Assembly (NCBI RefSeq): GCF_900156345.1
Contig: NZ_FTPP01000001.1
Span: 310,001 to 374,000, forward strand
DNA from: Pontibacter indicus
GTDB taxonomy: Bacteria > Bacteroidota > Bacteroidia > Cytophagales > Hymenobacteraceae
Direction of reading: 5' to 3'
Length of the DNA: 64,000 nucleotides
Part shown: in pieces, positions 1 through 12,330 of the stretch
Layout of the letters: each line of letters opens with the position of its first letter
Numbering within the stretch: the first letter of the stretch is position 1
The notes under the pieces: model-generated
What the model was told of the DNA's origin: nothing
What the model saw: only the letters and a program-made list of their open reading frames with translations
The model's database searches: none
Program-made: the position numbers and the translations under genes

Positions 1-659
1 ATGGCTCCCATCAACACACCACGCTCCCCGGTCAGGTCGCTGTATACTTCTTTCTTAAAATCTGTCTCAAACAGGTAACCGCTCCCTATGGCTATGCCCA
101 ATGCCAAAGCCCGCTCTTCGGCTCTGCCGCTGACGTTCTGGTACACAGCATAGCTCGAGTTCAATCCCTGTCCCTCAAGAAAAAGTGTGCGTAAAGAAGT
201 ACCCGAGCCTTTAGGCGCCACCAGAAAGACATCCACATTAGCGGGCGGAACGATCCCGGTTTTTTCATGAAAAGTAACGCCAAATCCGTGCGAGAAGTAC
301 AGCGCTTTCCCTTCCGTCAGGTGTTTTGATACAACCGGCCAGGCGGCAATTTGCCCGGCATCTGAAAGTAAGTTCAGTAGTATAGTTCCTCGTTGGCAGG
401 CTTCCTCCAGTGCAAAAAGGGTTTCGCCTTCCACCCATCCGTCTTTTAAAGCTTTTTGCCACGATGCTGAATCTTTACGCTGGCCTACGATCACATTGAT
501 CCCGTTATCGCGCAGGTTTAATGCCTGTCCCGGGCCCTGCACGCCATAGCCGAGCACGGCTATAGTTTCGTTCTTCAACACTTCCTGCGCTTTTGCAAGC
601 GGAAATTCATCGCGGGTGACTACATTTTCCAGTTCTCCGCCAAAATTTATCTGTGCCAT
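1..659 (-). CDS. ilvC: ketol-acid reductoisomerase, partial (C-terminus beyond window)
   Basis: It converts acetolactate or acetohydroxybutyrate to the dihydroxy acids, the second step of Val/Ile synthesis, using NAD(P)H and Mg2+. The translation starts MAQINFGGELENV from the ATG at 657-659. It holds the dinucleotide-binding GYGVQGPG motif at residues 37-44 and the FSHGFG segment expected before the catalytic region. Only the first 219 codons are inside the window; the knotted C-terminal Mg-binding domain is missing because the window ends, not because the gene is broken. It is the last visible gene of the ilvE-D-B-N-C operon and is separated from ilvN by a 222-nt spacer. That is wide for this operon, so it may have its own promoter or a processing site. 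Confidence 0.96.
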   Translation of the reverse strand, partial: MAQINFGGELENVVTRDEFPLAKAQEVLKNETIAVLGYGVQGPGQALNLRDNGINVIVGQRKDSASWQKALKDGWVEGETLFALEEACQRGTILLNLLSDAGQIAAWPVVSKHLTEGKALYFSHGFGVTFHEKTGIVPPANVDVFLVAPKGSGTSLRTLFLEGQGLNSSYAVYQNVSGRAEERALALGIAIGSGYLFETDFKKEVYSDLTGERGVLMGA

Positions 660-881
660 TTTCTGAGTTGTTTTTAATGTTTTTTTGATTGTTTTAGTCT
701 TCGATTTGGTTTCTAGATCACCCTCGCTCGCCGGAGGCAAGTGTGTGCAACTTGCGGACTCCGGCCACTTTAAACTATAGTTTAGTTGAAGATCGAATCA
801 TTAAGCTGTGGCAGGACGCCACAGGTAGCTCAGCAAGCCACAACTATAGCAAGTCACGCGCATGGACGTTCGGGCCATGAA

Positions 882-1124
882 CTATAATTTGCTTTCTGCC
901 TTCAGCTTTGCATCGGCCACTTCAATAATCCGTTTTAGTTGTGGGATAACCTTTAGTGCCAGTTCCGGGCTGATGTCAGCTGATACACAGATCAGGCTTA
1001 GGTCCTTCAGGGCATTGGCACGTAAGTTCAAAGTCGTGATGTTGACTCTGTTACGGGTGAATACTGTGGTTACTTTTTCCAGCACGCCTATCTTGTTTTC
1101 GGTGTAAATTTTTAGGGTTTGCAT
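882..1124 (-). CDS. ilvN: acetolactate synthase small (regulatory) subunit, single ACT domain
   Basis: The 80-residue product starts MQTLKIYTENKIGVLEK and is essentially one ACT domain, the fold that binds the feedback inhibitor valine in acetolactate synthase. I chose the start at 1124 because the open frame extends 14 codons further into the end of ilvB, and the ACT domain begins exactly at MQTLKIYTE. With this start the gene follows the ilvB stop by 10 nt. Small subunits are usually about 160-180 residues with a second C-terminal domain; this one has only the ACT half, like the short IlvM type of enterobacteria. Assignment rests on the ACT pattern and the position directly after ilvB. Confidence 0.88.
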   Translation of the reverse strand: MQTLKIYTENKIGVLEKVTTVFTRNRVNITTLNLRANALKDLSLICVSADISPELALKVIPQLKRIIEVADAKLKAESKL

Positions 1125-1134
1125 AGGTTCAGAT

Positions 1135-2895
1135 TTATTCGAGTAACATGCCATCAACTGCCGCACCGGTAGGCATCATCGGGAATACATTTTCTTCGTT
1201 CTCGACCAGCACATTCAGCAAAAAAGGCTTTTCGCTATGTAGCATTTGCTGTATGGCTCCGGGCAGTTCTTCACGTTTCTCAACACGTAGCGCGTTTATC
1301 CCAAACGCTCTGCTGATCTCGGCAAAGTCCGGGTTTTCCATTTTCACGAAAGAGTAGCGGCCATCAAAGAACATATTCTGCCACTGGCGCACCATCCCCA
1401 GGAAATTATTATTCAGTACCACCACCTTCACGGGTACTTTATATTGGGCTATAGTTGCCAATTCCTGTATCGTCATCTGGAAACACCCGTCGCCGATAAC
1501 AGCTACAACTTCGCGGTCCGGGGCGCCAGTTTTTGCACCTAAAGCTGCCGGCAAGGCAAATCCCATAGTGCCCAGGCCCCCGGAGGTAAAGTAGCTTTTG
1601 TGTTTCTGGAAAGGGTAGTAGCGCGCGGCCATCATCTGGTGCTGCCCCACATCGGCAATCACCATCGCTTCGCCGTTCGTCTGCTCGCCCAGCACCCGGA
1701 TCACCTCGGGCATCGTTAGTTTTACTTTGGCAGGATACAGCGCCTTCCGGCGTACTTTTTCTTCTTCCTGTGCATCCAGTTTTGCAAACTCTACCAGCCA
1801 TTCAGTATGGGAATAGGTGTGCAGTAAAGGAGTGAGTTGCTCAAGTATCGTGAGGGCATCACCCAGCAAAGGCACATCCGCTTTTACAACCTTGTTCAGC
1901 TCCGAAGGGTCTATTTCGATGTGGATGACCTTGGCCTGCTTCGCATAAAAGTTCAGGTTTCCGGTTACACGGTCGTCGAAGCGCATGCCTATGGCCAGCA
2001 ACACATCGGCTTGGTTGGTGAGCAGATTGGGCGCATAATTGCCATGCATACCCAGCATACCAACATACAGCGGGTGACTGGTAGCGATACATGACAAACC
2101 ATGCAGGGTGCAGGCCACAGGGGTTCCGGTCTTTTCTGCCAATGCCAATAACGCTGCTTCGGCTCCAGCTATACCTACTCCGTTTCCGGCCAGTATCAGC
2201 GGGCGCTGCGCTTGGTTCAGCAAGGTAGCAGCCTGCTGCAGCTTCTTCCGGGTAAAGCCGGGTTCTTTTTTATAGTAAGGCAGCTCGATTACAGGCGTAT
2301 AGTTAAATGACTTTTTGAGTTCGGCAAACTGGGCATCTTTTGTCACCTCTATCACCACCGGACCGGGTTTGCCACTTCGGGCTATAAAAAAAGCTTTTGC
2401 CATCGCGTCGGCCACTTCATCGGCATCCGTTACCTGGTAGTTCCATTTGGTTACTGCCGCGCAAACGCTCATGATATTGGCTTCCTGAAAAGCATCCGTT
2501 CCCAACAACCCCGAACTTACCTGGCCCACCACACATACCATCGGTACACTGTCCATCAGGGCATCGGCGAGGCCGGTTATAAGGTTGGTAGCACCGGGGC
2601 CGGAGGTGGCAAACACCACCCCGACCTTTCCGCTTGCACGGGCATAGCCTTCGGCGGCATGGGTGGCTCCCTGCTCATGGCGCACCAGGATGTGGTTTAC
2701 TTTGTGGTTGAAATCATAGAGCGCATCATAGATCGGCATGATCGCGCCACCCGGATAACCAAAGATGGTATCTACGCCTTCGGCTACCAGGCTGCGCATC
2801 ACGGCTTCGGCGCCGGTACAGGTGCTTTTAGCGGTCGGTGAGGCAGCCTTCTGAGGCGCAGCCAACTTGCCTGGCATATTTGTATAAGATTCCAT
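1135..2895 (-). CDS. ilvB: acetolactate synthase large (catalytic) subunit
   Basis: This 586-residue ThDP enzyme condenses pyruvate with pyruvate or 2-ketobutyrate, the committed step to Val/Leu and Ile. The N-terminal domain (about residues 28-195) opens with [20 protein letters not shown] and has the [16 protein letters not shown] segment carrying the catalytic Glu. The middle domain spans about 215-350. The C-terminal ThDP domain has the GDGCFQM...[12 protein letters not shown] signature. Its 5' end overlaps the end of ilvD by 68 nt, which points to translational coupling; a start at the internal Met 7 (2877) is equally possible. Length and motifs are complete, so it should be active with the small ACT subunit encoded next. 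Confidence 0.96.
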
Positions 2896-4507
2896 TTTTA
2901 ACTTTTAAAGGTGGCTGATTCCAGTTCTGTTTTCTGTTTTCGAGGGTTTGGTCATCTACCAGCAGGTTAATTTTCCGGTTCAGGATGTCGAGCTCGATGG
3001 TATCTCCGTTTTGCACCAGTGCCAGCGGCCCGCCATCGTAGGCTTCAGGTGAAATATGCCCCACCACAAATCCATGCGTGCCCCCGCTGAACCTTCCATC
3101 AGTGATCAGGGCTACTTTATCGCCCAGGCCGGCGCCCATAATGGCGGAAGTAGGTTTGAGCATTTCTGGCATGCCGGGACCACCTTTTGGACCCACATAC
3201 CGGATCACAACTACACTGCCAGGCAAGATTCCTTTGCGGGAAAGGCTGTGCATTAGGTCGGCTTCGCTGTCGAATACCTGGGCTGTTCCTTTAAAGTATA
3301 AGCCTTCTTTACCGCTTATCTTTGCCACACAACCCTTGGGGCTCAGGTTGCCATACAACACCTGCAGGTGGCCCGTTTCCTTCAGGACCTGAGCCAAGGG
3401 CTTCACCACATCCTGGTCTTCAAAATTCAGATCCGGAACATCCTGTAAATTATGAGCTATAGTTTGGCCGGTAACTGTCAGGCAACCGCCGTGTAAAAAG
3501 CCTTGCTGCAACAGATATTTCATTACGGCAGGTACGCCACCTACCCGGCACAAATGCTCCATCAGGTATTTTCCGCTTGGTTTTAAATCGGCCAGCACCG
3601 GGGTTTTGTCGCTGATATGCTGTACATCTGCTTGGGTTAGTTCCACGCCTGCAGTGGCGGCGATGGCCAGTAAGTGCAGCACGGCGTTGGTGCTTCCACC
3701 CAGTGTTACTACTACTGTCAGCGCATTTTCCAGCGATCTTCGGGTGATGATGTCGGATGGTCTGAGGTTCAGTTCGAGCAGGTGCAGCATGGCTTTCCCC
3801 ACGTTCTGGCATTCGTCTTTTTTACCTTCGCTCAGGGCAGGAAGCGAAGAGGAATAAGGCAGACTCATACCCAGCGCTTCGATAGCCGCTGCCATCGTAT
3901 TGGCTGTGTACATACCGCCGCAGGCACCAGGCCCGGGGCAAGCATTTTCGATCACGCCGCAGTAATCTTCCTTCGTTATTTTACCAGAAAGCTTTTCACC
4001 CAATGCCTCGAATGCCGATACAATATTTAACTCTTTGCCTTTATAGTTGCCGGGCGCTATAGTGCCACCATAGATCATCAGAGAAGGGCGGTTAAGGCGT
4101 GCCATGGCCATCACGGCACCAGGCATGTTTTTATCACAGCCGGCTACAGTTACAAGGCCATCGTAATAATGGGCGGCACAAACTGCTTCTATCGAGTCGG
4201 CTATCACTTCGCGGCTTACGAGCGAGTAGCGCATCCCTTCGGTTCCGTTAGTAATTCCATCACTGATGCCGATGGTGTTAAAGATAAGCCCTACCTGTTG
4301 TTGTGCGTTCACCCCGGTTTTTACCAGCGCGGCCAACCCGTTCAGGTGCATGTTGCAGGTGTTGCCGTCGTAGCCCATGCTAGCGATGCCTACCAACGGT
4401 TTCTGAAAGTCGGTTTTGGTAAGGCCAACTCCATGCAACATCGCCTGTGCGGCAGGAAGGGTATCGTCCTGGGTAAGCGTTGCACTGTATTTGTTTAATT
4501 GACTCAT
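2828..4507 (-). CDS. ilvD: dihydroxy-acid dehydratase
   Basis: The 559-residue enzyme dehydrates 2,3-dihydroxy-isovalerate or -methylvalerate to the 2-keto acids, the third common step of Ile/Val synthesis. Iron-sulfur ligand segments are visible: the [12 protein letters not shown] signature (about residue 120) and [16 protein letters not shown] (about 190). The second family signature, [21 protein letters not shown]-like, lies near residue 465. Length matches the short-form family. It starts 28 nt after ilvE and overlaps ilvB, so the block behaves as one operon. No defects are seen. Confidence 0.97.
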
Positions 4508-4535
4508 GTTGGTTTTGATTCCCGCTTTAGAATGA

Positions 4536-5429
4536 TTACTGTTCGTTTGATACTAATTCTGGCTGAGGTTGCCGTACCAGTTTGGAGTAGTGTTCCTGTA
4601 GTTTTTTGCCAAGCGATTCCGACCAATCCAGCGGGAATCTATAGTTGTCTAACTGTGCAATGCCTATGATCTCGGCTGCCGTTCCGCAGTAAAAGGCGCT
4701 GTCGGCTGTTTTCAATTCTTCGGGGGTAAACTGTTTTTCTTCGCAACGCAGGCCAAGTTCGGCGCACATTTCCAACACGGTGGCGCGCGTAATGCCGGGT
4801 AATATGTTGCCCAGCGCAGGCGTAAACAGTTTGCCGTCTTTTTCCATAAACAGGTTGGCTCCGGGCCCTTCCGCTACAAAACCTGCCGCATCCAGCAGCA
4901 GTGCTTCGTCGTAGCCGTTTTCTTTGGCGTGCACTGTGGCCAGTATAGAATTGATATAGTGGCCGGTAACTTTGGCTTCCACATGCACCGATTTCGGGTT
5001 AGGGCGCTGGTAGGGAGAAGTGCACAGGTTCAGCATTTTGTCGCCCAGGTAAGCGCCCCATTCCCAGGCTGTGATCAGCAGGTTTACACCGGTCGGTTTG
5101 CTCAGGCTCATGTTCGGGTCCAGGTACACCACGGGGCGCAGGTAAGCATCCTGCAGGTTGTTCTGGGCCAGCACCTTGTACGAGGCCTCCACCAGTTCTT
5201 CCACCGAATAATCAAGCTGGATGTGGATCAGGTCACATGATTTTTTCAGGCGTTCGTAATGCTCTTTTGCTTTAAAGATGCTGGGGCCATGTTCGGTTGC
5301 GTAGGAGCGTATGCCTTCGAATACCCCATAGCCATACTGAAGGGTCTGGCTGTAGAGGTTCCCGTTAGCTTCTGTGGCCTTTACCATTTTCCGGTTCAGG
5401 TAAACTACTGTGTCGTGGTTATAATACAT
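4536..5429 (-). CDS. ilvE: branched-chain amino acid aminotransferase
   Basis: A PLP fold-type IV transaminase that makes Val, Leu and Ile from their keto acids with glutamate. I start it at [14 protein letters not shown] (297 residues) because the open frame upstream runs through a terminator hairpin and the end of a leader peptide. [13 protein letters not shown] (31-43) is the family's substrate-side motif. Lys153 in [10 protein letters not shown] is the expected Schiff-base lysine. GPGANLF and the FYCGTAAEI segment follow as in bacterial IlvE. It is the first structural gene of the operon and lies directly behind the tandem attenuators at 5484-5824. Confidence 0.95.
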
Positions 5430-5483
5430 GGTACTTGGGTTTAAAATAGTTGATGAAAAGTGAGTTTCGGATTTGGAGTGGGC

Positions 5484-5519
5484 TAAAACAAAAGCGCCAT
5501 CCTTGTTGGGGATGGCGCT
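5484..5519 (-). terminator. second ilv attenuator terminator
   Basis: On the minus strand a perfect 10-bp stem (arms 5510-5519 and 5493-5502, 7-nt loop) is followed by TTTGTTTTA. It lies 24 nt after the stop of leader peptide 2 and 54 nt before the ilvE start. The 5' arm and loop contain CATCCCC (5508-5514), complementary over 7 bp to GGGGATG in the last codons of leader 2 (5552-5558). That gives the mutually exclusive antiterminator expected of ribosome-mediated attenuation. Confidence 0.85.
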
Positions 5520-5542
5520 CAGCTGCTTTCTATAGTTCAGTT

Positions 5543-5626
5543 TCAGCAATACATCCCCCGCACGATTGGAATAATCGCGATAATAATAATGCTGATAATG
5601 ATTATGGTGCTGTGCAGGTGGTTCAT
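5543..5626 (-). CDS. ilv leader peptide 2 (Ile-rich attenuator peptide)
   Basis: A 27-codon ORF reads MNHLHST, then four Ile, Ser, four Ile, Ala-Ile-Ile-Pro-Ile-Val-Arg-Gly-Met-Tyr-Cys and stop; 11 of 27 residues are Ile. It is too short and biased to be an enzyme, and its place between two terminator hairpins upstream of ilvE is that of an attenuator leader. Stalling on the Ile run when charged tRNA-Ile is low would leave the Arg-Gly-Met codons (5552-5558) free to pair with the terminator 5' arm. No Shine-Dalgarno site is seen. The codon pattern and C-terminal G-x-Y-C resemble leader 1, so the two probably arose by duplication. Function is inferred from layout. Confidence 0.82.
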   Translation of the reverse strand: MNHLHSTIIIISIIIIAIIPIVRGMYC

Positions 5627-5673
5627 TGGGGTATGGTTGCTTGTGGTTTTATGGTTGTTGCTATAGTTGCGTT

Positions 5674-5705
5674 AAATAAAAAAGGCCGCCCTGGTGGGGC
5701 GGCCT
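5674..5705 (-). terminator. first ilv attenuator terminator
   Basis: On the minus strand a perfect 9-bp GC-rich stem (arms 5697-5705 and 5683-5691, 5-nt loop) is followed by TTTTTTATTTAA, a strong intrinsic terminator. It lies 29 nt after the leader 1 stop. Its 5' arm contains CCGCCC (5697-5702), complementary to GGGCGG in the Met-Gly-Gly codons near the end of leader 1 (5751-5756). Confidence 0.87.
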
Positions 5706-5734
5706 CTGTGCTATCTTCAGTTTTATACTTCCAA

Positions 5735-5824
5735 TTATATGCACATATATCCGCCCATGACCGGTGAAATAATCACGGCGATAATAATAGAGCGAATAAT
5801 AATTTGTGCAGCTGTGTTTTTCAT
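5735..5824 (-). CDS. ilv leader peptide 1 (Ile-rich attenuator peptide)
   Basis: A 29-codon ORF reads MKNTAAQ-III-RS-III-AV-II followed by SPVMGGYMCI; 9 of 29 codons are Ile and 2 Val. It is followed by an intrinsic terminator, and its Met-Gly-Gly codons can pair with that terminator's 5' arm. This is the arrangement known for amino-acid biosynthetic leader peptides such as those of enterobacterial ilv operons, though the sequence itself is unrelated to them. A TAnnTTTG promoter box ends only 7 nt upstream of the ATG, so the transcript has almost no 5' leader. Function is inferred from layout. Confidence 0.84.
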   Translation of the reverse strand: MKNTAAQIIIRSIIIAVIISPVMGGYMCI

Positions 5825-5831
5825 GATGGCA

Positions 5832-5863
5832 CAAAGGTAAAATTATTTTTTCCTGAGAATCAA
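5832..5863 (-). promoter_or_regulatory. promoter of the ilv leader and operon
   Basis: On the minus strand TTG (5861-5863), a 21-bp spacer and TACCTTTG (5832-5839) match the Bacteroidota housekeeping promoter pattern. The -7 box ends 7 nt before the leader 1 ATG. No other good candidate is seen between here and the tRNA-Glu terminator. The rest of the 5864-6064 spacer is AT-rich and holds nothing I recognise. Confidence 0.68.
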
Positions 5864-6064
5864 GTAAAAATTAACTTAAAATTTAAATTCCATGAATATT
5901 ACAATTAATTTACTGTGCATTAGGGGACATATAATATTAGTTACTGGAGCTTACTTTAGTGAGTAAGTGGAAATATTCTTGACATAGACATCAGATGATA
6001 TAGCAATGAAAGGACTAATAAGAAAGAGTAGCAACGCTAAAAGGGTTTCTTCTTCTCTGGAAAC

Positions 6065-6101
6065 AAAAAAGCCGCTCCACATGACGTGAGGAGGCTTTTT
6101 T
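6065..6101 (-). terminator. terminator after tRNA-Glu (bidirectional)
   Basis: A hairpin with AAAAAGCC/GGCTTTTT outer arms and an imperfect CTC-rich inner stem lies just after the tRNA 3' end; both strands end in a T-run. Confidence 0.7.
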
Positions 6102-6108
6102 ATTGTAG

Positions 6109-6180
6109 TAGTCCGTAGGGGAATCGAACCCCTGTTGCCAGAATGAAAATCTGGAGTCCTAACCCCTAGACGAACGGACC
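6109..6180 (-). tRNA. tRNA-Glu (UUC)
   Basis: The minus strand folds as a cloverleaf. The acceptor arm is GGTCCGT/ACGGACT with a terminal G-U pair. The anticodon stem CCAGA/TCTGG encloses loop TTTTCAT with anticodon TTC. The T-arm is AGGGG-TTCGATT-CCCCT. CCA is not encoded. The 3' end faces the ilv block, the orientation expected if a foreign segment had integrated at this tRNA. Confidence 0.95.
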
Positions 6181-6200
6181 GTGCTACTGTATTGCGGGTG

Positions 6201-6231
6201 CAAATATACAAGCCTATTCTTAGGAAGCAAA
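6201..6231 (-). promoter_or_regulatory. tRNA-Glu promoter
   Basis: On the minus strand TTTG (6228-6231), a 19-bp spacer and TATATTTG (6201-6208) form a full-consensus Bacteroidota promoter, 20 nt upstream of the tRNA 5' end. Confidence 0.8.
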
Positions 6232-6378
6232 GATATTTTTAAAAAAATGAGGGCTGGCGTTTTTTATACCTTAGTAGTACGCTCGCACAGCTGACGATAA
6301 AGGTTGACCTGATCATTTTTGTAAACTTCGTCTTATCTTGTGCCGTTATACCTTCATTCAGTGAAAAATTTAAATACT

Positions 6379-6654
6379 ATGTCAAAAAGAGCATTTTATA
6401 CTGGTGTAACGCCAGAAGCATACAACGAACTCAAGAGCAAACTACAGACCTACGGTATGAATTTGCAGGGGAACAGCGGGCGCATAAACGAGAAAGGCGT
6501 CAATGCCAACTTCAATTACGACCCCAATGCCGGGTCGCTCGAGATCAGCGATCTGTCAGTCGGCTTCCCGGCCAGCATGATGATCAACGCCGACAGCCTG
6601 ATGCAGCGCATGGACGAGATGATTTCTAAGTATGGGGGCCGCGCTGAGGTATAA
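6379..6654 (+). CDS. conserved small hypothetical protein
   Basis: I do not recognise a family. From the start MSKRAFYTGV the product has 91 residues, is polar and mixed alpha/beta, and has no signal peptide or membrane segment. An upstream in-frame Met at 6340 exists, but the sequence between (MPLYLHSVKNLNT) looks untranslated. The C-terminal half carries FPASMMINADSLMQRMDEMISKYGG, probably an amphipathic helix. A second small gene follows 75 nt downstream in the same direction, and a terminator ends the pair, so they are probably co-transcribed. Confidence 0.75.
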   Translation: MSKRAFYTGVTPEAYNELKSKLQTYGMNLQGNSGRINEKGVNANFNYDPNAGSLEISDLSVGFPASMMINADSLMQRMDEMISKYGGRAEV

Positions 6655-6729
6655 GCCATATCCTGACGCAGATAATGCCGTATAAGAAAACCACTTGAAC
6701 TTAATACCTAAACGAAACCGAAAATAACT

Positions 6730-7038
6730 ATGGAAAACGATAACAAGAGCAACCAGAATGCCGGCGAAAGCAAACAAAGCCAGGGCAAGAAGGAACCAAG
6801 CGCTCTCAAACTTCTGCAGCCACACGATATGTCTAAAACAGTGGAGTCGGCTATGCACGTATTTCAGGGTAAGCACGACAAACTGCCCGAATTGCTGCAC
6901 GACGTAGGGAAACTGGTGCTGCAGGGCGCCCGCCGCATGAGCACCACACAGCTTATTCTGACTGCAGGCGCTGTAACGCTCGGTGCGGTGCTGGTTGCCA
7001 AGTATGTGGCCGAACAGGACTTCGACTTTGAGGATTAG
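6730..7038 (+). CDS. small hypothetical protein with C-terminal membrane segment
   Basis: A 102-residue protein with no recognised family. The first 30 residues are very polar and rich in Lys, Asn, Gln and Ser. Residues 35-72 look helical (MSKTVESAMHVFQGKHDKLPELLHDVGKLVLQGARRMS). A hydrophobic stretch at about 76-93 (LILTAGAVTLGAVLVAKYV) could be a single membrane span, followed by an acidic tail EQDFDFED. This resembles a cytoplasmic domain anchored at its C-terminus. It follows another small gene and is closed by a strong terminator. Confidence 0.75.
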   Translation: MENDNKSNQNAGESKQSQGKKEPSALKLLQPHDMSKTVESAMHVFQGKHDKLPELLHDVGKLVLQGARRMSTTQLILTAGAVTLGAVLVAKYVAEQDFDFED

Positions 7039-7059
7039 CAGTTTATATAAATCTGACAG

Positions 7060-7091
7060 AAACCCTTCACCAAATAGTGAAGGGTTTTTTT
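7060..7091 (+). terminator. intrinsic terminator
   Basis: AAACCCTTCAC and GTGAAGGGTTT form a stem followed by TTTTTTTG, directly after the 6730-7038 gene. Confidence 0.85.
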
Positions 7092-7187
7092 GTGCCTGCC
7101 CATTTCTGGTACGTCCTTTGCAATTGGAACCTATATAGCAAGCGTCTATATTTACCGCATTGTTTCTAACCCTTTTTCAACAGAATT

Positions 7188-7898
7188 ATGAAAAAAGCAT
7201 CTTTTATTGCCTTGGTATTTTTGCTGGCGGCCATGTTCCCTGCTCTGGCCCAACAACAAATACTGCCTCCCCTTATCAGCGTGAACGGAATAGGGGAGGT
7301 GAAGCTCGAACCGAACGAAGTAGTGGTCACCCTGGGAGTGGAAACACGCGAGAAGACCCTGGACCAGGCACGCAAACAAACTGATAAGCAGGCAGCCGCC
7401 ATCATCGCCTATCTGCGAAAGCAGGGGGTGGATGCCAAAGACATCCAGACTTCTTTCGTTAACCTGCAGCCCATTTATGCAGGTAACGAATTTGGGAAAG
7501 CCCAGCCCGAGTTTTATATGGCGCAGAAGACGATGACCATTGTGATCAAAAAAATCAATAAGTTCGACGAGCTGCTTTCCGGGCTGTACGACAATGGCGT
7601 GAACCGCATCGATAACATCTATTTCAGGGTGTCAGACATTGAAAAGCACCGTGCTGAGGCCCGTAAGAAAGCAGTAGCCGACGCCAAGCAAAAAGCCAAT
7701 GCTCTGACAGCTGAACTAGGAGCCAAGGTAGGCAAGGTATACTCCATCAATGAGCACACCTCCAATGGTTCGCCACGCATGGGTTATGCGAAAATGGCAA
7801 TGGACATGGAGATGGCACAGAGTGGTGGCCCTTCCATTGCTGGTGGCGAAGTGATCGTAACATCAACCGTCAACGTGAGCTTTGTGATAGAGCAATAG
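7188..7898 (+). CDS. SIMPL domain (DUF541) periplasmic protein
   Basis: The 236-residue product has a signal peptide (MKKASFIALVFLLAAMFPALA, cleavage about residue 21) and then the DUF541/SIMPL fold. Family features visible are VNGIGEVKLEPNEVVVTLGVETREKTLDQA near the mature N-terminus, the GVDAKDIQTSFVNLQPIY segment and the C-terminal GGEVIVTSTVNVSFVI strand. SIMPL proteins are periplasmic or outer-membrane associated and of poorly known function; some are linked to oxidative stress or porin-like assemblies. Single gene: terminators lie on both sides. A weak promoter (TTG at 7124, 20 bp, TATATTTA at 7147) precedes it. Confidence 0.85.
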   Translation: MKKASFIALVFLLAAMFPALAQQQILPPLISVNGIGEVKLEPNEVVVTLGVETREKTLDQARKQTDKQAAAIIAYLRKQGVDAKDIQTSFVNLQPIYAGNEFGKAQPEFYMAQKTMTIVIKKINKFDELLSGLYDNGVNRIDNIYFRVSDIEKHRAEARKKAVADAKQKANALTAELGAKVGKVYSINEHTSNGSPRMGYAKMAMDMEMAQSGGPSIAGGEVIVTSTVNVSFVIEQ

Positions 7899-7920
7899 CC
7901 CATACAGATATACAGCATTA

Positions 7921-7955
7921 AAAAGAGCTCTCTGGTTTGTCAGAGAGCTCTTTTT
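7921..7955 (+). terminator. intrinsic terminator
   Basis: A near-perfect stem AAAGAGCTCTCTG/CAGAGAGCTCTTT with a 6-nt loop and flanking A and T runs lies between convergent genes, so it probably works on both strands. Confidence 0.85.
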
Positions 7956-7985
7956 GGTTTGATGTCAGGTATAGGACAGGGTTGA

Positions 7986-8984
7986 TTAGCCCTGCTTCTG
8001 AAAGCGTTCGATCGGCCTGAAGTTGTTCACATCATCGAGCAGAAAACTGATCGGCTTGCCGGGGTCTGCCAATATTTCTTTTTCGCGGATATCCCAGGGC
8101 TTGAGCATCTCCTCGAGCATGTGTGCGTAGGCGGTCATCTCCCAGGGGTTGAAGATTTCGTTCGTCACATCGTCGATGATGGTGTCAAGCGTGATGTGCG
8201 TGTCACTGGGCTGGAGGGGCCGTTCGAAATACTCTGGTATCACATTGAAAATGTAGGCCGCATAGAACACCCGCGCCTTGAACTCCGCCACCTGAACCGG
8301 ATGCAGCTGCTGCCCCTGTGTGAGGCGGTAAAGTTTGCCCAGTGCCCTGCCGATGATGCCATTGTCGAGGAGCGTGCAGACTAGCACAACCGGACCCAGC
8401 TTGATACTGAAAGCCATGGTTGTCAGCTCATCCTGATACTCAAATGGCAGATCGTCTTCCGTAGGGCTCACCTCCAGCATAAAGAGGGAGCAGGGCAGAA
8501 AATCAGCGAACTCCACGGGCACCCGCATCGATTGCAGCACTTTGAAGAACTCCCGGAACTTGCCCAGCATCTTCGGGTTCTCACTCACCGGATTTTGGGG
8601 CATAATCAGCGGGTCAGCCTCTTTGATCAGTTCGGTGATCAGGGTACCGTAATACATCTTGCCAATCCACTGAAACAGCTTTTTAGGGTCCAGCGCCTGC
8701 AAGCCTGCTATACCTTGTTCAGTAGCCACCGCTATTTCCTCTTCAAGCGGAATGACATGCTGGGTATGGCAGTGGTCGCAGCAGGGAATGGTCAGTTCAC
8801 CGTATGTTGTAATGCTCTTATCGAGCAGCAGCAGTTCCTTGTCGCGCAGTTGGTATTTGTCCTGCAGCCAAGTCGCAAAAACCGGCGTTCGATTCTCAGG
8901 TTCGGTATGAGCCCCGCACAGAAAGCAGTGCTTGTCGCTGAACTGCATGTTCGGAAACGGGTCGTATAGTTTCAATTCCGTCAT
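7986..8984 (-). CDS. hypothetical protein with N-terminal CxxC...CxxC zinc-binding module
   Basis: A 332-residue cytoplasmic protein I cannot assign. Residues 19-24 (HCFLCG) and 68-76 (CCDHCHTQH) make a CxxC...CxxC pair 45 residues apart, with extra His at 73 and 76. This spacing is like a treble-clef or HNH-type zinc module, but I do not see a convincing HNH catalytic His-Asn pair. The remaining 250 residues are alpha-rich with acidic stretches and no membrane segment. It is transcribed alone from a TATCTTTG box at 9005-9012, 20 nt upstream of the ATG, and ends against the shared terminator at 7921-7955. Confidence 0.72.
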   Translation of the reverse strand: MTELKLYDPFPNMQFSDKHCFLCGAHTEPENRTPVFATWLQDKYQLRDKELLLLDKSITTYGELTIPCCDHCHTQHVIPLEEEIAVATEQGIAGLQALDPKKLFQWIGKMYYGTLITELIKEADPLIMPQNPVSENPKMLGKFREFFKVLQSMRVPVEFADFLPCSLFMLEVSPTEDDLPFEYQDELTTMAFSIKLGPVVLVCTLLDNGIIGRALGKLYRLTQGQQLHPVQVAEFKARVFYAAYIFNVIPEYFERPLQPSDTHITLDTIIDDVTNEIFNPWEMTAYAHMLEEMLKPWDIREKEILADPGKPISFLLDDVNNFRPIERFQKQG

Positions 8985-9004
8985 GGTCGTGTCGTTTGGA
9001 GGTG

Positions 9005-9012
9005 CAAAGATA
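9005..9012 (-). promoter_or_regulatory. -7 promoter box of the zinc-module gene
   Basis: TATCTTTG on the minus strand matches TAnnTTTG, 20 nt before the 8984 ATG. No clear -33 TTTG is visible. Confidence 0.5.
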
Positions 9013-9039
9013 CGAAGAAGTGCTTGTCGGTATCAGGAT

Positions 9040-9620
9040 TTTCAGATTTAAGAGCGATCCTACCCCCAGGGATTAGCTGGATTACGGTGCACGATTGACA
9101 CACCCCTGCCCATCTCGAGAGGGGAATTTCTGCTATTGCAAATCCTAAAGTAGAAGCTTCATAGATTTTGTGACCGTACATACCACTGGCAGGTATAGCA
9201 AGGCTAACTTGCACGCTCACGATGAAACAGATAGCGGTGCCAGGTGCGTTTTTCGACGCTCCACTGTTGGGGGTGAAGGGGTCCCCCTGTCAAGAGCGTT
9301 CAGCGAGTTTGGAGCGTCTTGACTTTTTGCTTACTGGGGGTAGGGGCCCTCGATTTTTGTGTCAAGACAAAAAGTGAGTGCCCGCCGCACAGGCGAAACA
9401 GAAGCCCTCATGGCTAAGGCAAGCTATGAAACAAGACCGGTTGCTATACCTGCAACTACACCAGATACAAGTATACAGGTACTATGCACCAGCGGCCAGA
9501 GTCCGCCTGCTAGCTCACACTCGCGGGACGCGAGCGAGGGCATAGAAGTAGCTATGCTTATACCTATACCTGGCCAGAGGCCCCACGTTAGCAGACACGA
9601 GCGTGGATGCTCGTGCCATA
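9040..9620. repeat. dispersed non-coding repeat, copy A
   Basis: This gene-free stretch is matched piecewise by the reverse complement of 40200-40817. Shared blocks include CACGATTGACACACCCC near 9090, the GTGCCAGGTGC...CTCCACTGTT block near 9240, GGGGGTAGGGGCCCTCGAT near 9340, the inverted-repeat block TTTTTGTGTCAAGACAAAAAGTGAG, and the CCCGCCGCACAGGCGAA block near 9380. A further match is the AGAGGCCCCAC...CACGAGCG block near 9580. The rest of 8985-9692 holds no credible gene. Confidence 0.8.
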
Positions 9621-9692
9621 ACCGGTATTTACAGGATCATCCTATGGAAAATTCAGAAATGATCAGAAAAAGAGAAGTGAGAAAAAAAGTTT

Positions 9693-10138
9693 AACAGCAA
9701 GCCTGTAAGCCGGGTTCTGTCGCTGGGCCGAATCCCAACGTCTTATCATTTATCTAGGCCTGCACTCGCGCGCAGGCTCCATCGACCTACCCACTGACAT
9801 CGGACGAGCAGCCCTTAGCCCCGCCGAAGCGAGGCGCTGTCAGCCTATTTGGTCTTTCAACTCCTAAGGTTTACCCAGCCGGACTGGTCACCCAGCCGCT
9901 GGTGCGCTCTTACCGCACCTTTTCACCCTTACCGGACTAATGACTAATGATGAATGAATAATTATTAATTACTCATTACTGATTAATCATTAAATAGCCC
10001 GGCGGTAATTTTCTGTGGCACTGGCTGTAGCCTTCCCGTCTCCCGGAGGGCCCCTTCCCGTTAGGAAGTAGGATGCTCTGCGTTGCCCGGACTTTCCTCT
10101 CCTCCCAAGCGGGAGCAGCGATAAGACGGCTTGCTGTT
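9693..10138 (-). ncRNA. rnpB: RNase P RNA, bacterial class A
   Basis: The catalytic RNA of RNase P, which trims tRNA 5' ends. On the minus strand the 5' end AACAGCAAGCCGTC pairs with the 3' end GGCTTGCTGTT (helix P1). The conserved GAGGAAAGTCCGGGC block is at about 10085-10108 and the ACAGAAA block near 10010. The TAAGGGTGAAAAGGTGCGGTAAGAGCGCACC segment follows, and the 3' conserved GGCCCAGCGACAGAACCCGGCTTA is near 9712-9735. The 446-nt length is on the long side because an AT-rich 59-nt repeat is inserted in the P12-type stem (9936-9994). Confidence 0.95.
9936..9994. repeat. TAATGA-type hairpin repeat inside rnpB
   Basis: An AT-only-like segment, TAATGACTAATGA...TGATTAATCATTA, interrupts the GC-rich rnpB sequence between ACCGG and CCCGGCGG. 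Its arms are imperfectly self-complementary, so it would extend a stem rather than destroy the fold. Same family as the spacers at 27128, 28190, 42145, 52457 and 59705. Confidence 0.8.
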
Positions 10139-10154
10139 AAGCTTTCTATACCTG

Positions 10155-10162
10155 CAAAGGTA
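10155..10162 (-). promoter_or_regulatory. -7 promoter box of rnpB
   Basis: TACCTTTG on the minus strand ends 16 nt before the rnpB 5' end. The -33 region is a weaker TTTA about 18 bp upstream. An AGGTATA word lies between box and gene. Confidence 0.6.
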
Positions 10163-10165
10163 TAA

Positions 10166-10353
10166 TTAATTGTTGATGGTTAAATTGTTAAATTGTTGTA
10201 AGAAGGGAATGGTTCCAATTCCTATGTTGCTTTACTGACGCTGGTTGATGGTCACCTGATCCTAAATCTTTGGTTATAAAGAATCATGGAGGAAACAACA
10301 ATTTAACCATCAACAATTTAACAACTCACTCGCTAAATCACTCAGTCACTCAA
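10166..10353. repeat. CAATTTAAC/CACTCA-type inverted-arm repeat
   Basis: The left arm (TTGTTGATGGTTAAATTGTTAAATTGTTG type) and right arm (CAACAATTTAACCATCAACAATTTAAC type) are inverted copies around a unique core. The right side continues as CACTCGCTAAATCACTCAGTCACTC. No gene is seen here. Confidence 0.75.
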
Positions 10354-11310
10354 TTATCTGAGCCTCACCAGCGTGGCCCCATACCCGAACTTCTCTTTCT
10401 TGGCGTCTTCGAAGAAGCGGATGCCGGGGGTGCGGCTCAGGATTTTCTGGATCTCTTTGCGGAGCACGCCGTTGCCGGATCCGTGTATGAAGATGATCTC
10501 GTGCATGTTGGCGGCCATGGCGCGGTCCAGTGCGTCCTGAAACCGCTCGAGCTGTAGCTTGAGCATGGCGCTGTTGCTCATGCTGCTGTGGTCCTCCACC
10601 AGTTTTTCGATGTGCAGGTCTACTTCGTGCTCAGGAGCCTGTACCTTGATTTGCTCCTGCGAGCCGGGTTTTTCAGAAAGCTGCTCTTTGATCTTGTCAG
10701 TGTCAACGGCTACCGGTTTGGTGTCGAGCTGGAAGAGGTAGGCCTCTTTGTTGAGCACCGGCGCGGTTCTCTTGCTCTTGTAAAAGGAGTTGGCGCGGAA
10801 CTGCACTTTCTTGGTCACCGGCTCAAACAGGCTCGGAGCACCATTTCGGTGCTGCAAAAACTGCACGATCAGCGTCGGCCATTTCTCGAAATCCTTCATG
10901 TGGTAGTGGCTCACCACGCGGCTCGCCTTTGGGGCCAGCTTGTCGTTCTGCAGTCCGCGGTACTGGTTGTTGCGCTCCTCACCAGAGGTAAAAAGCACAT
11001 CGTAATCGGTGTTGTTCACCACCGTGGCGGCCAGCAGCTCGTCTGACTGGTGTACCATGGCCAGGTAGATTCCCTTTTCGGCCAGCACAGGGGCGGGTGG
11101 TTCTTTGCGGGCCGATGGTTTTGCTGCTTCAGGCTCGGCATTGCGGAAAGCCCTGGCTTCTTCCGGCGCAATCAGCACGATTTCCCGGCGCGAAACAGGT
11201 ATCGTAAAGTCATTGTCGATGGCAACTTCCACAATGTTGTTGTTCAGTATGCGGGTAATGATGCCCTCTTCACGGCCCGACATCAGGCGCACGCGATCTC
11301 CTACGTTCAT
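10354..11310 (-). CDS. DUF2027 and Smr domain protein
   Basis: A 318-residue protein. The N-terminal 45 residues (MNVGDRVRLMSGREEGIITRILNNNIVEVAID) form a small SH3/KOW-like domain. The middle third is a beta-rich DUF2027 region (about 75-200). The C-terminal 85 residues are an Smr domain: VDLHIEKLVEDHS gives the LDxH-like motif and FIHGSGNGVLRKEI the HGxGxG motif. Smr domains are nicking or RNA-cleaving nucleases in MutS2 and ribosome-rescue proteins. This domain layout is common in Bacteroidota, but its job is not established. A TATCTTTG box at 11386-11393 is the likely promoter. Confidence 0.87.
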   Translation of the reverse strand: MNVGDRVRLMSGREEGIITRILNNNIVEVAIDNDFTIPVSRREIVLIAPEEARAFRNAEPEAAKPSARKEPPAPVLAEKGIYLAMVHQSDELLAATVVNNTDYDVLFTSGEERNNQYRGLQNDKLAPKASRVVSHYHMKDFEKWPTLIVQFLQHRNGAPSLFEPVTKKVQFRANSFYKSKRTAPVLNKEAYLFQLDTKPVAVDTDKIKEQLSEKPGSQEQIKVQAPEHEVDLHIEKLVEDHSSMSNSAMLKLQLERFQDALDRAMAANMHEIIFIHGSGNGVLRKEIQKILSRTPGIRFFEDAKKEKFGYGATLVRLR

Positions 11311-11424
11311 AGTCTTTTATGTTTATGGCCAGGGTATAAGCTGTTGCTGGCTATACCTTGGTGTGTACATGCAAATAGATTTTACGCAAAGATACGATTT
11401 GTGCGGCGGAATAAACGACCTGAT

Positions 11425-12330
11425 TTAGAAGTATACCGGATGGAAACGCAGGCCGTCCGTGCGGTTATACTCCAGGGCGGGAGCCGGGATTTTGATGATG
11501 TTGAGCACGTAGAGCGTGGTGTTAAGCACCTTGCTGCGCCCTTTGAAGTGCATCAGGTTTAGGTCAGGGCTCAGGTAAAACTGTCGTCGGTCGTTAAAAC
11601 CACGGGCTTCGTTCAGTTCCGGATCGTTGTAGACCATACCCTCCGCACCGTAGCCAACCGCTATACTCAGCCATTTGGGGTATTTGCTTTCCTCTTTCAG
11701 AAAATCCCCCACATTCACAGAGAGCCAGTACGTTTGCCCGTTGTAATCTTTGAGTACCTGCTCGGGCATTGTATGGCCCAGCACATTGGGTCGTTCCGCA
11801 GCGTAGTGGGTAGTCTGGAAAGAGAACTTTGGCATGATGCGCACCTCCCGCCAGGCCAGTTCCTGCGCTACCACGGCCGCCGAGCCGACCGTGTTGGCAA
11901 TGGCATCACCAACCGAGGCACCATAATCCGCCTGAAAGCCGTCGAAAACTTCGATGGGCGTCTGGAGCAGGATACCCGTCAGGCCGCCGTACAGGATGGC
12001 TTTTTTATCCGGTACGCCGGCCCAGCGCAGCAGGTCTATACCTGCCCGGCTCTCGTGGAAGGCGCCCCAGAAGTGCCCCGCTTTGTCCATTTGCTTCCAC
12101 TGGCGGTTGTCGTTAAAGAAGTGAAAGCCTGTGCGCTCCTGCTCTTTGTACCAAGCCTTGTTTAGTGAAACCAGCATAGCCGTATACCCCACCGCAAAGC
12201 CGGAGCCAAGCACCAGCAGCCGGTCCTTATTTACCTGCGCGGCCGTAGAGTCAGAAACAGCGGCCATACCCTGGAGGGGTTGGAGCAGCAGCAGTATACA
12301 AAGCCAGAAAAGAAGCAGGTAGCGGTACAT
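11425..12330 (-). CDS. DUF2279 family exported protein
   Basis: I take the start at MYRYLLLFWLCI (12330) rather than 21 nt upstream, because a TATCTTTG promoter box overlaps the longer frame. The first 24 residues are a signal peptide ending near QGMAA. The mature protein has the DUF2279/YfiM-like pattern: DKAGHFWGAFHESRAGIDLLRWAG (about 85-110) followed by FDGFQADYGASVGDAIANTVGSA (about 130-152). These hydrophobic helices probably associate with the envelope. The C-terminal half is beta-rich (SVNVGDFLKEESKYPKWLSIAVGYGAEG). Function is unknown. It is monocistronic and runs towards the Smr gene. Confidence 0.78.
   Translation of the reverse strand: MYRYLLLFWLCILLLLQPLQGMAAVSDSTAAQVNKDRLLVLGSGFAVGYTAMLVSLNKAWYKEQERTGFHFFNDNRQWKQMDKAGHFWGAFHESRAGIDLLRWAGVPDKKAILYGGLTGILLQTPIEVFDGFQADYGASVGDAIANTVGSAAVVAQELAWREVRIMPKFSFQTTHYAAERPNVLGHTMPEQVLKDYNGQTYWLSVNVGDFLKEESKYPKWLSIAVGYGAEGMVYNDPELNEARGFNDRRQFYLSPDLNLMHFKGRSKVLNTTLYVLNIIKIPAPALEYNRTDGLRFHPVYF

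Follow-up and report, generated by a model that had tools for sequence, protein, structure and literature searches.

Leader-peptide attenuation is a textbook mechanism of enteric bacteria, in which an operon usually carries a single gate. In the enteric model, a protector (1:2) hairpin brings about termination when the leader is left untranslated.

The accessible part of Naville and Gautheret (2010) states that leader peptides were known only in Proteobacteria and Actinobacteria, and adds the Firmicutes. In Actinobacteria, candidate single attenuators have been located before ilvB, and the same source, of which an excerpt was available, reports that changing the candidate regulatory codons of the Streptomyces coelicolor ilvB leader had no effect (PMC1262725). 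This cautions against reading the function of such leaders from their appearance. Serial elements are described, in sources likewise available as excerpts, for several systems. The Salmonella mgtCBR operon has tandem attenuators, mgtM and mgtP, which its authors call a singular example (PMC3641672). Tandem T-box riboswitches precede ilv, leu, trp and thrS in Bacillota (PMC12452182), two leader peptides, ermBL and ermBL2, take part in the induction of ermB (PMC8274638), and in several Gammaproteobacteria the rimP leader has two terminators in tandem (PMC2965389). For the Bacteroidota, the accessible text of a Flavobacterium psychrophilum map devotes one sentence to clues for leader-peptide attenuation of amino-acid operons (PMC9723704), and that of a Bacteroides thetaiotaomicron map refers to sORFs resembling leader peptides.

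No tandem leader-peptide attenuator of an amino-acid operon appeared in the titles and abstract openings among the literature matches listed, although a prior mention in a 2010 comparative study of attenuation (PubMed 20198868) is not excluded. Here we describe a locus of Pontibacter indicus that very probably carries two complete ribosome-mediated transcription attenuators, arranged serially on one leader RNA before ilvEDBNCA. Their function is inferred, in the absence of expression data. Within the limits of that literature search, this is a known mechanism in a new arrangement.

Anatomy of the Pontibacter indicus locus

The window, i.e. the whole 64,000-nucleotide stretch of P. indicus DNA that was analysed, contains the following features. 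Coordinates refer to the window unless stated otherwise.

5832..5863, minus strand: putative promoter, TTG at 5863-5861, spacer of 21 nt, TACCTTTG at 5839-5832 (direct reading)
5735..5824, minus strand: leader peptide 1, 29 aa, 9 Ile, MKNTAAQIIIRSIIIAVIISPVMGGYMCI
5755..5778, minus strand: possible hairpin within leader 1, spanning the Val-Ile-Ile codons, its 3' end touching the gate-1 antiterminator strand
5751..5756, minus strand: gate-1 antiterminator strand GGGCGG, in the Gly-Gly codons
5697..5702, minus strand: its partner CCGCCC, 5' arm of terminator 1
5674..5707, minus strand: predicted terminator 1 including the T-rich tail (consensus scan; -21.3 kcal/mol)
5543..5626, minus strand: leader peptide 2, 27 aa, 11 Ile, MNHLHSTIIIISIIIIAIIPIVRGMYC
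5552..5558, minus strand: gate-2 antiterminator strand GGGGATG
5508..5514, minus strand: its partner CATCCCC, 5' arm of terminator 2
5484..5520, minus strand: predicted terminator 2 including the T-rich tail (consensus scan; -19.3 kcal/mol)
4536..5429, minus strand: ilvE, branched-chain aminotransferase, first structural gene (TIGR01122, 275.8 bits, cut-off 245.55)
2828..4507, minus strand: ilvD (TIGR00110, 710.4 bits, cut-off 618.15)
1135..2895, minus strand: ilvB, acetolactate synthase large subunit (TIGR00118, 702.1 bits, cut-off 538.35)
882..1166, minus strand: ilvN-like short ACT-domain protein (acetolactate synthase small subunit match below cut-off, 34.1/119 bits)
1..740, minus strand: ilvC, which exits the window; genome ORF 309616-310740 (TIGR00465, 319.4 bits, above cut-off)
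Genome 308311-309609: ilvA, outside the window after ilvC (TIGR02079, 603 bits, above cut-off)

The minus-strand order, as read from the sequence, is promoter, leader 1, terminator 1, leader 2, terminator 2 and ilvE. The preliminary description of this DNA had announced two ORFs of 29 and 27 codons with 9 and 11 Ile, which is exact by direct reading, and a terminator within 30 nt of each leader. The consensus scan placed the terminators 27 nt (gate 1) and 22 nt (gate 2) downstream of the leader stop codons. The stem of terminator 1 (5707..5681) has 11 bp, 8 of them GC, and that of terminator 2 (5520..5492) has 11 bp with 7 GC, both being followed by a T-rich tail; termination itself is inferred. 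The two pairings that had been proposed between leader ends and terminator arms were recovered at the same bases, and both are helices in the predicted fold of the RNA preceding the terminator 3' arm. The whole folded stretches containing the antiterminator reach -22.7 kcal/mol for gate 1 and -17.3 kcal/mol for gate 2. The single promoter of the earlier reading corresponds to TTG-21-TACCTTTG, which we take to be a promoter from the consensus of the Bacteroidota, and the idea of one recognisable start upstream of both modules agrees with the motif counts among relatives given below.

Taken together, the two leaders contain Ile and Val and a single Leu. This composition fits an operon that includes ilvC and ilvA, in a genome where a profile search with the LeuA family TIGR00973 gave no match anywhere. 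Compared with its counterpart in the nearest relative (G015), leader 1 shows three synonymous and no nonsynonymous codon changes, and leader 2 two synonymous and four nonsynonymous changes. The possible hairpin within leader 1 comprises 8 pairs and is not significant when considered alone (p = 0.17); a smaller palindrome, GTGATTATTTCAC (5776-5764), was spotted by eye in the same leader. Elsewhere in the window, the Rfam scan located a tRNA gene (6109-6180, minus strand) and a class A RNase P RNA (9690-10137, minus strand).

The closest named genome to the window IlvE is Pontibacter fetidus (94%). With G015/P. fetidus excepted, the window IlvE is at most 59% identical to those of other Pontibacter, as against up to 66% for Flavobacteriaceae. 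A first IlvE tree grouped it with the Flavobacteriaceae (97/91), but this tree contained a mistranslated row (L037). After the tree was rebuilt without that row, the AU test did not reject a single clade with the other Pontibacter/Hymenobacter-type rows (p = 0.11). Horizontal transfer of the operon is thus neither established nor excluded by these sequence comparisons.

Leader modules in other Bacteroidota

To count as a module, an ORF of 9-60 codons needed 7 or more I/L/V among 12 residues and, no further than 90 nt behind it, a stem of 8 bp or longer with 4 GC and a T-rich tail. The scan covered as much as 600 nt in front of ilvE. Among 142 ilvE loci, a set in which some genomes are present twice under different handles, 58 had two modules, 2 had three, 43 had one and 39 had none. 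The corresponding numbers for the 128 distinct N-free 600-nt upstream regions, nearly all from Bacteroidota and unevenly sampled, were 51, 2, 40 and 35. No module was found in 1,280 dinucleotide shuffles of these 128 regions (ten per region), and the background was one module in 2 of 1,504 tiles and in 3 of 128 reverse strands. Chance is therefore excluded as the source of the modules.

The tandem is not peculiar to P. indicus but occurs in several families of Bacteroidota, with up to three modules. Named carriers of at least two modules include Pontibacter, Chryseobacterium, Flavobacterium, Aequorivita, Kordia, Bizionia, Aureisphaera and Fluviicola. By family, named loci with at least two modules amounted to 4/5 in Hymenobacteraceae, 24/26 in Weeksellaceae, 9/14 in Flavobacteriaceae and 3/4 in Crocinitomicaceae, in addition to two unranked records and one doubtful Saprospiraceae locus; the three named Chitinophagaceae loci had a single module. 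Three modules were detected in Aequorivita (L040) and in a MAG (L042). The extra module of L039 flanks an N run, may be an assembly artefact and was excluded from the three-module evidence. Sampling was biased, the 26 named Weeksellaceae loci weighing on one side and 19 unnamed loci of one other genus (L019-L037) on the other. This other genus belongs to the family of P. indicus, and modules are absent from 18 of its 19 loci. The preliminary description had held that relatives lacking the Ile-rich ORFs would refute the attenuation reading. The carriers above do retain branched-chain-rich ORFs and terminators, and that genus, one locus excepted, does not.

Within the genus Pontibacter, an IlvE of this type was found in 15 of 50 genomes (E 1e-80). 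Two modules were detected upstream of 12 of these 15 ilvE genes and fewer in L008, L009 and L011. The leaders are degraded in L008 and missing in L011, which are apparent natural losses of gates. Some Pontibacter loci begin with ilvD, and there the modules precede this gene; both were recognised by eye in L186, L192 and L195, and only the first in L179, L182 and L183. Anchoring the search on ilvD revealed at least one module in 36 of 56 loci, a set that overlaps the ilvE set, and in 31 of 60 further regions. The latter are only about 1.2 kb long and the first module may be clipped, as illustrated by L225, which shows one module where L134, at the same place, shows two; they are therefore of no use for denying tandems. 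On an IlvE tree of 89 rows, at least 14 changes between tandem and non-tandem states are required (L065 and L132, tandem under a relaxed detector, were counted as single), so that the tandem state has been gained or lost often.

Two side observations were made in the genus. No IlvD match at E 1e-100 was obtained in 23 of the 50 genomes and this IlvE was absent from 35 of 50 (E 1e-80), possibly reflecting a patchy loss of Ile/Val synthesis. In addition, 10 of 27 genus loci (L177, L178, L179, L182, L186, L189, L191, L193, L195 and L197) have an exact copy of AGAAATAGTA, an unexplained element, at a distance of 116-228 nt ahead of ilvD. This element occurs 11 times in the 260 kb of the 56 loci, where 0.5 would be expected under uniform composition. 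Near-matches were seen by eye in other genus ilvD loci, and the element is absent from the window.

Of 53 two-module loci, 40 have the motif TAnnTTTG no more than 75 nt ahead of the first module, and none has it so placed before the second. The motif was found in 14 of 38 single-module loci and in 187 of 8,707 background tiles. One of the 40 matches, that of L041, is probably due to chance; the first module of this locus was missed in the count and the match lies beside the preceding terminator. With a promoter before gate 1 and none recognisable before gate 2, the two gates most likely share one transcript. This inference of one promoter upstream of both modules is made without transcript data, and other promoter types are not excluded.

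Leaders were also detected before other amino-acid operons, with His, Trp and Phe/Tyr detectors whose thresholds differed from those of the branched-chain detector. His leaders precede hisG in 22 of 50 loci (the 30 best-scoring and 20 chosen loci of the 128 genomes with a match), all of them single; none was found at the hisG locus of P. indicus itself. Trp leaders precede trpE in 26 of 30 loci of the genus, again all single, in a sample of 30 of the 50 matched genus genomes that did not include P. indicus. Phe/Tyr leaders precede pheA in 5 of 20 loci of a class-wide sample, where they are single. Among 31 pheA loci of the genus, from 34 matched genomes, 25 had a single leader, 4 including P. 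indicus had a tandem and 2 had none. Tandem gates are hence not confined to ilv. In P. indicus, the region upstream of pheA (402858-403397, G000:C6, L364/L425) contains tandem Phe/Tyr-rich leaders, MNKQQKSYTFFFYFFPPQD and MHPTQQNSYYGFGFSFYFFGKRPGLY, with a terminator after each. In a leuA control, no leaders were found in any of the 16 loci examined out of 30, the other 14 being weak matches; loci without any leader are uninformative on tandems.

Leader-end pairing, ribosome position and gate identity

The pairing between leader end and terminator was assessed by a swap test on 62 modules less than 80% alike, in which each leader end was paired with its own or with a foreign terminator 5' arm. 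The mean energy was -14.0 kcal/mol with the native arm compared to -9.2 kcal/mol with swapped arms (permutation z of -14.5). The native arm was the very best partner in 10 of 62 modules and among the best tenth in 43. The 62-module set, also used for the ribosome model, contains doubtful modules, e.g. module 1 of L039 and L145.

Alignment of 17 Pontibacter gate-1 sequences gave an antiterminator helix of 8 pairs, with 91.9% of cells paired. In these 17 sequences, some antiterminator pairs were altered on one side or mismatched, and none was altered on both sides. In the same alignment, both-sided changes did occur in the terminator and the small leader hairpin, in 15 cells, a number matched by none of 500 shuffles. 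The whole-structure count of both-sided pairs did not stand out from that of shuffles (2, equalled or exceeded in 468 of 500, and 4, equalled or exceeded in 43 of 500). Non-compensatory changes in the arms had also been named beforehand as a possible refutation. In this respect the match was kept across families and compensation within the genus was not seen. The antiterminator would then have been preserved through sequence change, a conclusion that draws its support from the between-family swap test and remains unresolved within the genus. A hairpin at the position of the leader-1 hairpin covaries across the 17 sequences. However, only 5 of 18 gate-1 leaders and 3 of 18 last-gate leaders passed codon-order shuffles at p ≤ 0.1, and the hairpin inside gate-1 leaders is therefore called possible only.

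The effect of ribosome position was modelled by folding the RNA up to the terminator 3' arm after removal, codon by codon, of everything upstream of the ribosome front edge. Averaged over the 62 modules, the antiterminator had a probability of 0.75 with the ribosome at its best stalled position, and this fell to 0.10 with the ribosome at the stop codon. The drop exceeded twofold in 61 modules, and 60 had a stalled probability of 0.5 or above. I/L/V residues made up a fraction of 0.66-0.89 from 10 to 2 codons ahead of the last permissive codon, 0.32 one codon before it, 0.11 at this codon, and 0.14 and 0.20 after it. In the model, the antiterminator would thus be switched off just past the Ile/Val run in 61 of 62 modules. 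Swapped arms behaved similarly (0.63 stalled, 0.11 at the stop codon, 148 of 185 at 0.5 or above), so that the model alone discriminates native partners weakly. For the window, the modelled switch of gate 1 falls after ...AVIIS, from 0.6 to 0.1. That of gate 2 falls after ...AIIP, from 0.8 to 0.2, with a return to 0.4 at the stop codon, and is weaker than average.

In the absence of a ribosome, the mean antiterminator probability was 0.63-0.65 whatever the upstream length, including 30 or 60 nt more, and 46 to 52 of the 62 modules retained at least 70% of their stalled value. In full-length folds the antiterminator strand pairs with upstream leader sequence, in a protector-like manner. In nascent-RNA folds an enteric-type protector is not favoured in most modules. 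RNA without a ribosome being predicted to favour the antiterminator, an untranslated leader may read through, i.e. leak.

The two gates differ in their critical codons. In 18 tandem loci, Val accounted for 30 of the 72 last four branched-chain codons before the switch in gate 1 compared to 10 of 72 in the last gate. Counted by locus, Val was higher in gate 1 in 14, lower in 2 and equal in 2 (Wilcoxon p = 0.0024, an optimistic value since the 18 representatives share some ancestry). The critical codons of the window are IVII in gate 1 and IIII in gate 2. A codon bias was also observed in 54 tandem loci: ATT was used for 555 of 661 Ile codons in first and last leaders, versus 309 of 701 in ilvE stretches, and GTC for 142 of 273 Val codons, versus 72 of 828. 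Selection of whichever tRNA is most sensitive to starvation might account for this bias, as might RNA structure.

Between loci, modules resemble each other more when they occupy the same place (mean z 5.9) than when they occupy different ones (3.9), and the likeness of gates within a locus is intermediate (mean z 5.3, 20 pairs). In the other Pontibacter representatives, each gate, first or second, finds its best match in the gate at the corresponding place of other loci, which makes those pairs old. The two modules of the window reach a z of 9.8, the best match to its gate 1 from another locus being only 6.2; its gate 2 is slightly closer to the second module of L137 (10.4). The last two modules of L040 reach 19.3. 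From these similarities, the window pair and the last two modules of L040 look like local duplications. The peptides had been called homologous on first description, which holds for the window, whose pair is more alike than most, and not for most other loci, where the gates are not close copies and, at the critical codons, gate 1 is richer in Val and the last gate richer in Ile.

Two proposed gates in series and comparison with known systems

The proposed operation of each gate is as follows. A ribosome would translate the short Ile/Val-rich ORF with RNA polymerase ahead of it. When Ile- or Val-charged tRNA is short, the ribosome would wait on the Ile/Val run and leave the end of the ORF bare, and this bare end would pair with the 5' arm of its own terminator and block the terminator. 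When charging is adequate, the ribosome would pass the run and cover the end of the ORF, allowing the terminator to form. RNA polymerase must probably pass two such ribosome-operated gates before the pathway is turned on, and read-through should then be about the product of the two. If an untranslated leader reads through, a gate on its own would leak, and a second one behind it would lessen this. Leak reduction is a possible reason for the tandem, and, like the steeper response expected of a series, it is inferred.

The attributes of a ribosome-mediated attenuator that can be read from sequence are present. The leader ORFs contain a run of codons for products of the operon (9 and 11 Ile before ilvEDBNCA). 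The run is placed such that a stalled ribosome would free, and a ribosome at the stop codon would cover, the antiterminator strand, gate 2 of the window being only partly off (0.4). Two predicted intrinsic terminators stand between the leaders and the first gene, with termination inferred. The original reading of the locus as ribosome-mediated attenuation is thus supported by the tests performed on sequence, none of which refuted it; that ribosome position decides the outcome remains an inference.

Three other explanations were considered. One gate only might work, the other being a decaying duplicate kept by chance. The likeness of the two window modules (z 9.8), which exceeds that of any module from another locus to gate 1 (6.2), points in this direction, as do the single modules or remnants of L008, L011, L179, L182 and L183 and the weaker modelled switch-off of gate 2. 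We nevertheless consider it unlikely, as the terminators and branched-chain runs of both gates are undamaged in the window and its 94% relative alike, both antiterminator matches are present in the window, and the gates of other Pontibacter match by position and are hence old pairs. Control of the terminators by an aptamer, a tRNA or a protein, with the ORFs incidental, has a precedent in the tandem T-box riboswitches that, according to the available excerpt, fulfil this role for ilv operons of Bacillota (PMC12452182). It would leave the branched-chain codons at the switch point unexplained. Moreover, no Rfam family, T-box included, reached its gathering score at the modules, either in window positions 1-12000 or in 14 relatives; the best sub-threshold match at gate 1 was Phe_leader (31.9/55 bits), itself a leader-peptide family. 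This possibility appears very unlikely.

Alternatively, the ORFs could encode genuine small membrane proteins with a function in trans, in which case the hairpins would be ordinary terminators or sites of processing. The ORFs are indeed hydrophobic, and a leader peptide with a role in trans, peTrpL, is known from the accessible part of PMC7298713. However, the branched-chain run ends at the modelled ribosome switch point, and His, Trp and Phe/Tyr counterparts precede hisG, trpE and pheA, so that we give this explanation hardly any credence. Under the preferred reading of two serial attenuators, a further suggestion can be made, namely that the tandem is not a switch in duplicate but a coincidence detector in which gate 1 reads Val (and Ile) and gate 2 reads Ile, both being needed. 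Serial gates would repeatedly arise for pathways of two amino acids (Ile and Val; Phe/Tyr), His and Trp keeping one. This remains speculative, with the balance of our judgement somewhat against it.

Genomes with zero, one, two and three gates form a natural set in which the benefit of serial gating can be tested. The arrangement further suggests that a large phylum, where as far as the accessible sources go attenuation has only been hinted at, contains regulators that are not annotated. The F. psychrophilum clue concerns the same phylum, but is given without sequences or tandems in the excerpt available (PMC9723704).

The single attenuators of enteric ilvGMEDA, trp and his likewise combine an ORF rich in product codons, competition between antiterminator and terminator, and an intrinsic terminator before the first gene. 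They have one gate, whereas Bacteroidota ilv loci have two, sometimes three, in series; and, unlike the enteric attenuator, the Bacteroidota modules mostly show no strong protector effect in the model. The comparisons that follow are limited to the accessible portions of the sources. The mgtCBR leader resembles the present one in having two translated short ORFs on one leader, with an attenuator tied to each (PMC3641672). Its gates respond to unlike signals (ATP and proline) in an Mg2+/virulence operon, whereas the ilv gates contain codons for the products of their own operon. The ermB pair, unlike the ilv tandem, acts by translational attenuation in response to an antibiotic (PMC8274638). The rimP leader shares serial terminators with a potential antiterminator, leader-peptide logic not being mentioned in the part of the source available (PMC2965389). 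Tandem T-boxes are alike in placing two or three serial tRNA-charging gates before similar genes (PMC12452182). They belong to another phylum and their sensor is the tRNA itself, whereas that of the ilv leaders would be the translating ribosome. In our reading, the serial leaders of Bacteroidota and the tandem T-boxes of Bacillota are a convergent solution. A serial form that recurs in another phylum would show that bacteria build logic from such gates, in the manner of the tandem T-boxes of Bacillota.
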